Translations under genes and position numbers: made by a program
Shown here: in pieces, positions 1,553 to 62,603 of the stretch
Layout of the letters: each line of letters opens with the position of its first letter
Position numbering within the stretch: position 1 is the stretch's first letter
Source of the DNA: Undibacterium sp.
Lineage (GTDB): Bacteria > Pseudomonadota > Gammaproteobacteria > Burkholderiales > Burkholderiaceae_D
Direction of reading: 5' to 3'
Assembly (NCBI GenBank): GCA_030645915.1
Contig: JAUSNO010000025.1
Location: 26,083-90,082, forward strand
Length of the DNA: 64,000 bases
The notes under the pieces: model-generated
Databases searched by the model: none
What the model saw: the letters and a program-made list of their open reading frames with translations, nothing else
What the model was told of the DNA's origin: nothing

Positions 1553-1987
1553 TCAGGCGTCGGCGGCTTGCTTATTTCGGCTACCCGCCAGCAACCGCTG
1601 CAGCAATATGCCCGCCAGCATCGCGGGTAAAAATATCCAGGTTTCCCAATTGGGGCTGGCCAGCGACGCGATCGCCGGACCGGGGCAATACCCGCTGATG
1701 CCCCAGCCTATACCGAAAATAAGCGCCCCGACGATCAGCTTGCCGTCGATATTTTTTGCCAGCGGCAGAAAAAATTGATCTGAAAATAGCGGTTTCTTCC
1801 GGCGTAATATCCATCGGAACACGATCGCTGTCACGCCCACCGCCCCGCCCAGCACGAATAATAAACTGGGGTCCCAGTTGCCGGCCAGATCGAGAAAATC
1901 CAGTACCTTAGCCGGGCTGGTCATGCCCGACAAGGCCAAACCCAGACCGAACACGAGTCCTGCCAGCAAACTAATCAAATACGTCAT
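1553..1987 (-). CDS. YeeE/YedE family transporter, second half (PmpB/DUF6691-like)
   Basis: This is a 144-residue integral membrane protein with about four hydrophobic segments and the conserved cysteine motif GYCPGPAIASL. It belongs to the YeeE/YedE (Sulf_transp) family, whose characterised members import thiosulfate through a relay of cysteines or act in sulfur-compound transport. It is the second gene of a split pair: its ATG overlaps the stop of the upstream partner by one base (TGATG), so the two halves are probably translationally coupled and act as one transporter. The natural substrate is not shown by the sequence. No sulfur-metabolism gene is adjacent. Confidence 0.8.
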   Translation of the reverse strand: MTYLISLLAGLVFGLGLALSGMTSPAKVLDFLDLAGNWDPSLLFVLGGAVGVTAIVFRWILRRKKPLFSDQFFLPLAKNIDGKLIVGALIFGIGWGISGYCPGPAIASLASPNWETWIFLPAMLAGILLQRLLAGSRNKQAADA

Positions 1988-60517: not shown

Positions 60518-61330
60518 ATGAAACGTCATCTCCTCGCACTTCTCGCTTTAAGCAGCAGTTTTTTTGCCATCCCGGCGTTAGCGCAAGATGGCTCGACACT
60601 GGCCACGGCCAGCGCCAGCCAGCGCAGCAATGAGCAAGCCGAACAAGTCATTGGCGTAGGCCTGGGTTACGGCACGCGCTATTTCGGCGGCGAAACTGAC
60701 TGGCACGGTACGGTCTTTGGCGAAGCCAATTTTTCCAACGGCGTATTTCTCAGTACCAGGGATGGTGTGGGTTATCGCTTCCTGAACAATAATGCCGGCT
60801 TCTCCGCAGCGGCGAGTGTGGGTGCCAGCGGCTGGCGCAAGGAGTCTTATGGAAAAAACGATACCCGCAATCGCCTTACCGGCATGGGTGATGTCGATCC
60901 ACGCGTACAGGCAAATTTGTTCCTGAACTATGACATGGGCCCGTTCCATGTCAATACCGCTGTACATCAAACCCTGGCAGACCGCCGTGGCACGTCTGTT
61001 GACGTGACCGGCCGCTACGATCTGCTCTCCAGCAAGACTGATCTGGTGGAATTGTCAGGTGGTTTTAGCTATGCCAACAAGACCGAAATGGGTACATTTT
61101 TTGGTGTCAGCAATGCGCAATCGGCTTCCAGCGGAAATGCCGCCTACACGCCAAAAGCTGGCATTGCAGGTACCGGAGTCGGCGTAAGCTGGCGCCATGC
61201 GATCACGCAAAACTGGGTCAGCACGGTGAGCGCCAATGTCACGCGTTTGGGCGATGCCGCTGCCGATAGCCCATTGAGCGAGCGCCGCACGAATTCAGGA
61301 ATCGGCGCCACGATAGGTTACCGCTTTTAA
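60518..61330 (+). CDS. MipA/OmpV family outer-membrane protein
   Basis: This 270-residue protein has a signal peptide (about 1-22, ending ALAQ) and a beta-barrel of the MipA/OmpV type: GVGLGYGTRYFGGETDWHGTVFGEANFSNGVFLS, and a C-terminal strand ending in Phe (IGATIGYRF). Family members scaffold murein-synthesising complexes in E. coli or act as outer-membrane porins elsewhere. The start follows AAAAGGACTACC, a good ribosome-binding site. Downstream lies the repeat-rich region before cspA. Confidence 0.9.
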   Translation: MKRHLLALLALSSSFFAIPALAQDGSTLATASASQRSNEQAEQVIGVGLGYGTRYFGGETDWHGTVFGEANFSNGVFLSTRDGVGYRFLNNNAGFSAAASVGASGWRKESYGKNDTRNRLTGMGDVDPRVQANLFLNYDMGPFHVNTAVHQTLADRRGTSVDVTGRYDLLSSKTDLVELSGGFSYANKTEMGTFFGVSNAQSASSGNAAYTPKAGIAGTGVGVSWRHAITQNWVSTVSANVTRLGDAAADSPLSERRTNSGIGATIGYRF

Positions 61331-61384
61331 ATTTGGGTTCAATTACATTGATTCACTGGCACATGACACGCGTGCCAGAAACGC

Positions 61385-61408
61385 AAAAAGCCCGCTAAAA
61401 GCGGGCTT
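61385..61408 (-). terminator. Hairpin with T-run on the minus strand
   Basis: AGCCCGC and GCGGGCT pair around a five-base loop, followed on the minus strand by TTTTT. It can end a transcript running left from cspA through the repeat region. A weaker T-rich end exists on the plus strand, so it may also end the mipA-like transcript. Confidence 0.75.
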
Positions 61409-61429
61409 ACCATTCATAACGACGACTCG

Positions 61430-61463
61430 CCAGTAACCCATGCTATCTGCGTGGTGCCACTGG
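61430..61463 (+). ncRNA. Structured hairpin motif, unit 1
   Basis: CCAGT and ACTGG close an outer stem around an inner hairpin CCATGC-TATCT-GCGTGG. The inner loop sequence is identical in all four copies. Strand is assigned from G-U pairs that would be A-C mismatches on the minus strand. Confidence 0.45.
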
Positions 61464-61475
61464 ATAAACCCAGAA

Positions 61476-61497
61476 CCCGTGCTATCTGCGCGGTGCC
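61476..61497 (+). ncRNA. Structured hairpin motif, unit 2 (compensatory change)
   Basis: CCGTGC-TATCT-GCGCGG differs from unit 1 by A-U to G-C at the third base pair on both sides of the stem, a compensatory pair. Confidence 0.45.
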
Positions 61498-61581
61498 CCA
61501 GGCGGGCTGAGTCGCCCTTCGTTGCGTGCGCATTCTCGAGCTTGCACATACAACTTTTTACCACGAATGTTTCTCTTCACA

Positions 61582-61643
61582 AATCGACTACGCCATTTTC
61601 CAAGGTAGATGCAGTCTGCAAAACCTGGCCGGTGAGAATCGAT
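61582..61643 (+). ncRNA. Related structured unit with different inner loop
   Basis: AATCGACTACGCCATTTTCC and GGCCGGTGAGAATCGAT match the flanks of unit 3, with ATCGA and TCGAT complementary at the ends. The central hairpin is different (GGT-N16-ACC type). Confidence 0.35.
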
Positions 61644-61712
61644 GCGCGAGAGAGCAAATCGTCGGCCTGATGGCCACGCGAATTCTCTCGCTGCGGTGAA
61701 TATGTATTCACT

Positions 61713-61780
61713 AATCGACTACACCATTTTCCAAAAAACCCATGCTATCTGCGTGGTGCCCATGGCCGGTGAGAATCGAT
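61713..61780 (+). ncRNA. Structured hairpin motif, unit 3 with full flanks
   Basis: AATCGACTACACCATTTTCC, the core CATGCTATCTGCGTGG and GGCCGGTGAGAATCGAT form a 68-base unit with outer ATCGA/TCGAT pairing and an inner CCA/TGG closure. Confidence 0.45.
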
Positions 61781-61856
61781 CTGCGCATCAGAAAAACGTG
61801 TTGTCACGATTTCCTGACATGTGAAGTTTTGCCTCAAGTAAGATCCAGTCCATTCA

Positions 61857-61892
61857 CCAAAAGCCCATGCTATCTGCGTGGTGCCCTTGGCC
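61857..61892 (+). ncRNA. Structured hairpin motif, unit 4
   Basis: CCAA and TTGG close the stem around CATGCTATCTGCGTGG. The closing stem differs in sequence from unit 1 (CCAGT/ACTGG) but still pairs. The right flank GGCCGGTATGAAT resembles units 3 and the related unit. Confidence 0.45.
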
Positions 61893-61978
61893 GGTATGAA
61901 TGATCAGAGAGAATTTAAGTGAGGCTGAAAGCTTTTCTCTTAAGTGACCGGCAACGCGAGGCTGCCGATTTTCACTAA

Positions 61979-62191
61979 TTAAGAAAGGACTTGAATGTTG
62001 CCAGCCTTATCGCCTTTTGGGCCAACTGTGGCTTCAAAAGAAACGCGTTGGTTTTCAGACAGACTCTTGAAACCAGTCGATTGTATGTCTTGAAAGTGGG
62101 CGAACAAATCTGGACCGCCAGCATCTGGAGTGATGAAGCCGAAGCCTTTAGCATCGTTGAACCATTTGACTATACCTGTTTGAGTGCTCAT
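61979..62191 (-). CDS. cspA: Cold-shock protein CspA family
   Basis: This 70-residue RNA-binding protein has RNP1 KGFGFITP and RNP2 DLFAHF, and ends GNIQVLS. It melts RNA structure at low temperature or acts as a general RNA chaperone. AAGGAATTAAC lies before the ATG. A long AT-rich leader (over 100 bases) precedes it, as in other csp genes whose 5' leaders sense cold. Its 3' side runs into the unusual hairpin repeats, up to the minus-strand terminator at 61385. Confidence 0.95.
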
Positions 62192-62603
62192 GTTAATTCC
62201 TTAAAAATTTTAAATATAGGCGACATGCCTGAAAGGCACTTGAAACCAAGAGATGAAACCGGAGGAATTAAAACAGAACGACTAGAGGAAACAGCCATGC
62301 AGATTTGGGACCAACAATGTTACGACCTGATACAAGTACAGGCCGCAATATACACGCTGTGTGCAAATTCACCTAATGTTTTTTTCAAATAGATATTGAG
62401 AGTCGCTTAACAAGCGTCATCCATCGGCTCCCCCAGGCACGCGATCAAAACTGTGGATTTGCTGTGAATGAAGAAAATTTCTCTCATGATTGGCCGGGCA
62501 ATGTCACAGACCGAAAAAATACGAAATTCTTCTACTGACGGAAACCATGTTGGATTTTAAATTGCATTATCATGATGTTTTCTACATTTTGAAAGCCATT
62601 GCA
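62192..62603. other. Gene-free region: cspA leader and FKBP upstream DNA
   Basis: The left part is the probable cspA leader on the minus strand. A 31-codon open frame at 62297-62392 (plus strand) has AGAGGAAAC before its ATG but no recognisable product, so I do not call it a gene. Confidence 0.45.

Follow-up and report, generated by a model that had tools for sequence, protein, structure and literature searches.

A covarying bulged-A hairpin array in the likely 3′ UTR of an Undibacterium cold-shock gene: putative docking sites for an RNA-binding protein

A csp gene followed by a hairpin array

In the window, by which we mean the whole 64,000-nucleotide stretch of Undibacterium DNA that was analysed, a gene for a cold-shock domain protein lies on the minus strand (domain match PF00313 at G000:C20:88070-88261, 89.2 bits). 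Along that strand the order is csp, an array of similar hairpins, and a predicted terminator. The features, in the order in which the minus strand is read, are:

61979..62191, minus strand: csp gene for a 70-aa cold-shock domain protein, the third csp paralog of the genus (open reading frame list; PF00313)
61856..61891, minus strand: hairpin unit 4 (model R2, 46.6 bits, E 6.4e-12)
61731..61766, minus strand: hairpin unit 3 (model R2, 40.1 bits, E 3.8e-10)
61709..61785, minus strand: extended hairpin around unit 3 with outer AUCGA/UCGAU arms (single-sequence fold; the arms are direct repeats D2/D3)
61576..61662, minus strand: degenerate copy, with the arms of the extended unit and without the conserved core (direct repeats D2, D3)
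61468..61503, minus strand: hairpin unit 2, the CCGCGC/GCACGG variant (model R2, 43.0 bits, E 6e-11)
61429..61464, minus strand: hairpin unit 1, closest to the terminator (model R2, 46.6 bits, E 6.4e-12)
61384..61408, minus strand: predicted intrinsic terminator at the end of the csp-array unit (terminator scan; same place across the genus)

The exact core TGCTATCTGCG occurs at 61441, 61480, 61743 and 61868, always on the plus strand, which confirms the fourfold repeat that the first-pass annotation had reported; these copies span 61441-61878, and the window holds no further exact copy. Allowing one mismatch yields seven matches in the window where 1.63 are expected, a number that none of 100 shuffles reached. 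Repeat finding returned four 43-nt copies with spacings of 39, 263 and 125, and because this spacing is irregular the array is not a CRISPR, as had also been stated. Two pairs of longer flanks (D2 and D3) were recovered as well, in agreement with the earlier claim of shared flanks; the fifth unit that had been proposed alongside them did not survive, 61576-61662 consisting of arms only with no model match. A covariance model found four strong matches (40-47 bits) in the array and nothing above 7 bits in the rest of 61300-62300. Taken alone, the extended hairpin around unit 3 is weak (z -1.57; 16 of 200 shuffles fold as well).

Hairpin structure, covariation and strand

Read in the sense of csp, each hairpin has an outer stem of eight pairs, then a bulged A, an inner stem of six pairs and the pentaloop AGAUA. 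Two pair-preserving changes described earlier within the window are both present in the sequence: A-U becomes G-C in the inner stem of unit 2, and the closing stem is CCAGT/ACTGG in unit 1 versus CCAA/TTGG in unit 4. Folding of the minus strand over 61384-61978 gave -226.6 kcal/mol (z -5.46) with all four hairpins formed. Unit 4, the first hairpin after the csp stop codon in the predicted RNA, forms in this 595-nt fold with its inner C.A pair open.

Searching genomes for the core with at most one mismatch produced 159 matches, of which 151 were kept and 145 were distinct after duplicate removal; the eight left out had other cores, and at least one of them is a probable true unit (L155, loop AGAUC). 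Alignment A1 takes 43 diverse units from these, without gaps, and A2 holds 64, its 21 added units having been picked for the bulged A and CAGATAG. In A1, two-sided changes are found in 12 of the 14 pairs, 81.1% of cells are paired (against 62.6% when shuffled and 32-44% when slid), and the covariation score is 0.489 versus 0.174. Two-sided changes extend to 13 of the 14 pairs in the 64 units, among which pair 15-23, invariant in A1, appears as AU, CG, GU and UA. These counts uphold the first-pass proposal of an undescribed structured RNA with true covariation.

The invariant loop of A1 is a product of selection, because its units were chosen by their core. Loop constancy was assessed again on 178 model matches from 68 loci, with a model that itself favours the bulged A and AGAUA. 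Among the 177 that were tabulated, a single partial match (L218) being omitted, the bulged A is present in every one and the AGAUA loop in 174; the other three read AGAUC, AGGUA and AAAUA. The bulged A is likewise present in all 145 units of the first set, which were selected by core and not by bulge. Stem bases vary freely and mostly stay paired, and the bulged A, the closing C-G pair and the loop hardly change.

Which strand carries the RNA was judged from G.U pairs and terminators. Plus-strand transcription had been favoured earlier on account of one G-U pair. That pair is real, but it is one pair: it reads C.A on the minus strand (G.U on the plus) in 87 of 145 units. Across all 14 pairs of those units, G.U on the minus strand (A.C on the plus) accounts for 267 cells and the reverse for 129, and once the one inner pair is set aside the counts become 266 versus 42. 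All seven outer pairs, taken singly, show more minus-strand than plus-strand G.U. In 62 of 70 loci the minus strand has a predicted intrinsic terminator no more than 160 nt beyond the hairpins, whereas the plus strand has one in 2 of 70; five contig-edge loci were set aside for this count, and three of the 70 (L053, L056, L068) are probably chance matches from other bacteria. Terminators here are pattern matches, and 61384-61408 is the one terminator-like site in 61200-62500, where shuffles give 1.5. Since the scan of the window alone proves nothing, the evidence lies in recurrence across loci.

An RNA on the plus strand, facing csp and possibly antisense to csp read-through, would give the inner pair as G.U or A-U in most units, and folding of the plus strand, too, is stronger than that of its shuffles (z -4.39); the inner C.A and this fold both count against a csp-sense reading. 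The terminators and the outer pairs speak for the minus strand, as does the -10 box of the standalone loci described below, which reads in the hairpin's minus sense, and we regard a plus-strand RNA as highly improbable. The plus-strand reading is thus very likely wrong, and the RNA very likely lies on the minus strand, in csp sense. The inner C.A may form a protonated wobble, or the mismatch may itself be useful. Small plus-strand peptides (MLSAWC...) were considered and rejected, with an ATG in only 98 of 145 units and an in-frame stop in some.

Distribution across genomes and two carriers

A search for cold-shock domains covered 43 genomes of the genus, in which the third csp paralog corresponds to the class scoring 86-94 bits and is present in 34. 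Of these 34 genomes, 33 have the array; none of the nine genomes that lack the paralog has it, two of the nine being less than 75% complete. Rechecking eight of the ten array-negative genomes with model R1 gave only matches of 19.5-20.9 bits. The one exception with the paralog, G021, has a terminator of the same type about 40 nt after the csp stop and no array; the 2.8-kb stretch from that terminator on holds no hairpin (full-length matches of at most 10 bits), and the csp stop is preceded by a partial match of 13.2 bits. No hairpin was matched at the two remaining csp paralogs in 20 loci of 10 genomes. Co-inheritance of csp and array may come in part from shared ancestry. One genome, G036, carries two csp-array cassettes (C1:638835-639525 and C2:648509-649232), a pair that suggests duplication of the whole csp-array unit.

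Among 34 csp-linked loci listed by hand, the predicted terminator follows the array in 33 and falls between csp and the first unit in one. A promoter match of 10/12 stands just before the array in one of the 34 (L020); matches of 8 or 9 of 12 occur in some others and none in the window copy. From the L020 match, an internal promoter ahead of the array is conceivable. The stretch between csp and the array is little conserved in the genus alignment.

The position of the array between csp and its predicted terminator, together with the strong folding of the minus strand, would suit a cis-acting stabiliser, in which the hairpins only shield the csp mRNA from exonucleases or aid termination and have no specific partner. 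A plain block of this kind needs neither a fixed loop nor a bulged A, and it leaves unexplained the standalone RNAs with their conserved -10 box. We judge it an unlikely explanation.

A 22-mer pattern with at most two mismatches was found in 36 of 98 genomes, the window's own included, and the reversed control pattern had no matches. Scanning named genomes for an exact 16-mer gave at least 118 stretches, many of them chance matches in other phyla; among the matches listed, the full motif is present in Undibacterium, Duganella, Massilia, Pseudoduganella, Rugamonas, Herbaspirillum and Noviherbaspirillum, and also in metagenome-assembled genomes labelled Janthinobacterium and Herminiimonas. The homologues for which a covariance-model search had been proposed do exist: model R1 detects the hairpin in 173 of 294 genomes of the window's family, in 17 of 44 genera. 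At E ≤ 0.01, 12 of 300 genomes of the order gave matches, five of them from the family itself and seven weak (25.6-30.4 bits) where about three are expected by chance. Among genomes of the class, 2 of 274 matched, one being the window's own, and model R2 at E ≤ 0.001 matched 9 of 399 genomes, eight of the same family. Spread beyond the family was rejected, the outside matches being weak and near chance.

The genome that contains the window has five strong R1 matches, namely the four of the array and one at C12:109751. This fifth hairpin (L002, 1489-1524, minus strand, contig C12) is near a fumarase-like open reading frame, and inspection by eye places a terminator some 230 nt further along the RNA strand. 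In two other genomes, G110 and G307, the hairpin is found at about four separate places, as single copies enclosed in longer hairpins whose middle stem is AGAUUC/GAAUCU; one copy in G110 (L217) comes directly after a tRNA gene cluster.

Near-identical palindromic cores, the second place on C12 and the scattered copies of G110 and G307 are what one might see of a DNA repeat, whether a REP-like mobile hairpin or a set of protein-binding DNA sites. REP and BIME elements have many dispersed copies per genome; here only five strong matches exist in the own genome, four at one locus, and across the genus the array is tied to a single csp paralog. Compensatory changes that run through G.U mainly on one strand are also not expected of DNA sites, and little credence is left for this explanation.

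A second carrier is represented by 21 aligned standalone loci, among them Massilia, Duganella, Pseudoduganella and Rugamonas. A -10 box, TAYACT, occupies the same place in 19 of the 21, and a terminator with at least eight T is present in 19 of 21; the loci L114 and L115 have a similar -10 box closer to the hairpins and a terminator with five T. Thirteen of these RNAs measure 228-274 nt from the assumed start and have 77 consensus pairs, 31 with two-sided changes, in an alignment and structure fitted to the same data. In Massilia, Duganella and Rugamonas the hairpin is predicted to reside on a separate small RNA that has a promoter and a terminator of its own. Judged by eye from the end sequences, the neighbours of the standalone form differ (yihY-like, recJ-like, infA-like and others). 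Two loci, L156 and L151, lie near an infA-like open reading frame (by eye; its product, translation initiation factor IF-1, is another OB-fold protein), which in L156 stands 217 nt before the first unit.

The standalone form bears on the main rival of a docking-site reading, namely that the array is a trans-acting base-pairing RNA, with CAGAUAG (the loop and its closing pair) as a seed that is repeated for avidity and pairs with CUAUCUG in target mRNAs. Near-constancy of AGAUA is in keeping with this, as loop-loop pairing would also hold CAGAUAG fixed, and so are the predicted promoter, the terminator and the conserved stretches outside the hairpins of the standalone RNAs. Against it, the bulged A is equally fixed, which loop pairing does not explain, and by eye those conserved stretches are absent from the window array. 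We consider base pairing by the loop a serious contender that is nonetheless probably not the explanation.

Putative docking sites for an RNA-binding protein

We think it likely, with appreciable room for doubt, that the covarying hairpin array is the 3′ UTR of the csp mRNA, on the minus strand, and that each hairpin is a putative docking site for an RNA-binding protein. A specific partner is indicated because bulge and loop are fixed. The combination of a fixed bulged A, C-G closing pair and AGAUA loop with variable, paired stems has the look of an operator-type protein site, and the occurrence of the hairpin in predicted RNAs with different neighbours counts for a docking site over a plain stem. 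In operation, transcription from csp would continue across the array as far as the terminator, processing may leave the array as a persisting 3′-UTR-derived small RNA, and expression in cold shock would raise the number of protein-binding sites, titrating or redirecting the docked protein.

Several known RNAs are built along comparable lines. Phage coat-protein operators are short hairpins in which the loop and one bulged base below it are fixed while the paired stem varies, and iron-responsive elements have a bulged C and a CAGUGN hexaloop, one case having several of them in a 3′ UTR. The hairpin described here shares the short form, the fixed bulge below a fixed loop and the variable stem, but it is bacterial, and its bulged base is an A, six pairs below the pentaloop AGAUA, where iron-responsive elements have their bulged C and CAGUGN. 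CsrB and RsmZ titrate proteins through repeated hairpins with a GGA loop motif. Repeated hairpins with a fixed loop would suit protein titration here too; unlike CsrB and RsmZ, the array has AGAUA and not GGA in the loop (at the frequency given above), a fixed bulged A and a location in a csp 3′ UTR.

The first-pass annotation had recognised no known RNA family, and this stands. In the window no Rfam 15 family reaches gathering, and the hairpins themselves, here and at 12 related loci, show only overlaps below gathering, so that known Rfam families were discarded as an identity. These overlaps, seen at relaxed thresholds, are with isrB (22.5 of 35 bits), istR (26.5 of 45), rsmX (25.5 of 56, at L063, a further likeness to CsrB/RsmZ), Thr_leader (26.5 of 55), mir-154 (27.4 of 52), rnk_pseudo and a few weaker ones. 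The cspA thermoregulator (RF01766), which like the array belongs to a csp mRNA, has a match below gathering (56.4 of 78 bits) that spans csp and the region 5′ of it, at 61946-62300 on the minus strand, and does not cover the array. Betaproteobacteria_toxic_sRNA (RF02278) is a small RNA of related bacteria, two copies of which, above gathering, flank one hairpin of G110 (L223, copies at 1280-1347 and 1658-1722, plus strand); the hairpin itself has no match to RF02278.

Among the titles and abstract openings covered, we recognised none as describing the AGAUA hairpin. Two papers on Herbaspirillum small RNAs (PMC6337395 and PMC7011215) deal, in the passages covered, with csp 5′ UTRs and not with this hairpin. 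A general likeness is to 3′-UTR-derived small RNAs such as CpxQ and RaiZ (PMC9438474), which follow the stop codon of a stress gene and share its predicted intrinsic terminator, as the array is predicted to do in 33 of 34 csp-linked loci, and whose coding and noncoding parts would act together. Unlike them, the array is made of tandem copies of one covarying hairpin with a fixed bulge and loop, and the same hairpin recurs in a predicted standalone RNA; release of the array by RNase E is hypothetical. The kind of element, a structured 3′ UTR or small RNA, is already known; what appears new is the hairpin, together with the two carriers and the csp cassette.

ProQ was considered as a candidate partner. 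Across 294 genomes of the family, hairpin and ProQ occur together in 128, the hairpin alone in 45, ProQ alone in 48 and neither in 73, an association (odds ratio 4.3, p 4.5e-9) between genomes that are not independent of one another. ProQ is not an obligatory partner, because it is absent from 45 of the 173 hairpin-carrying genomes, and these include 23 in genus g67 and 11 of 20 in the window's genus.

More tentatively, and as a possibility that we hold to be less likely than the docking sites themselves, the hairpin could belong to an RNA-protein system that spans the Oxalobacteraceae. In such a system a bulged-A/AGAUA operator hairpin, carried by dedicated small RNAs as well as by csp 3′ UTRs, would titrate a dedicated protein and so couple cold-shock transcription to a post-transcriptional regulon.

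Our literature search found few described regulatory RNAs for the group of Undibacterium, Massilia, Duganella and Herbaspirillum, and in these genera and their relatives the AGAUA hairpin provides a testable RNA family with dense covariation. Its link to csp would make a coding and noncoding pair at a cold-shock gene.
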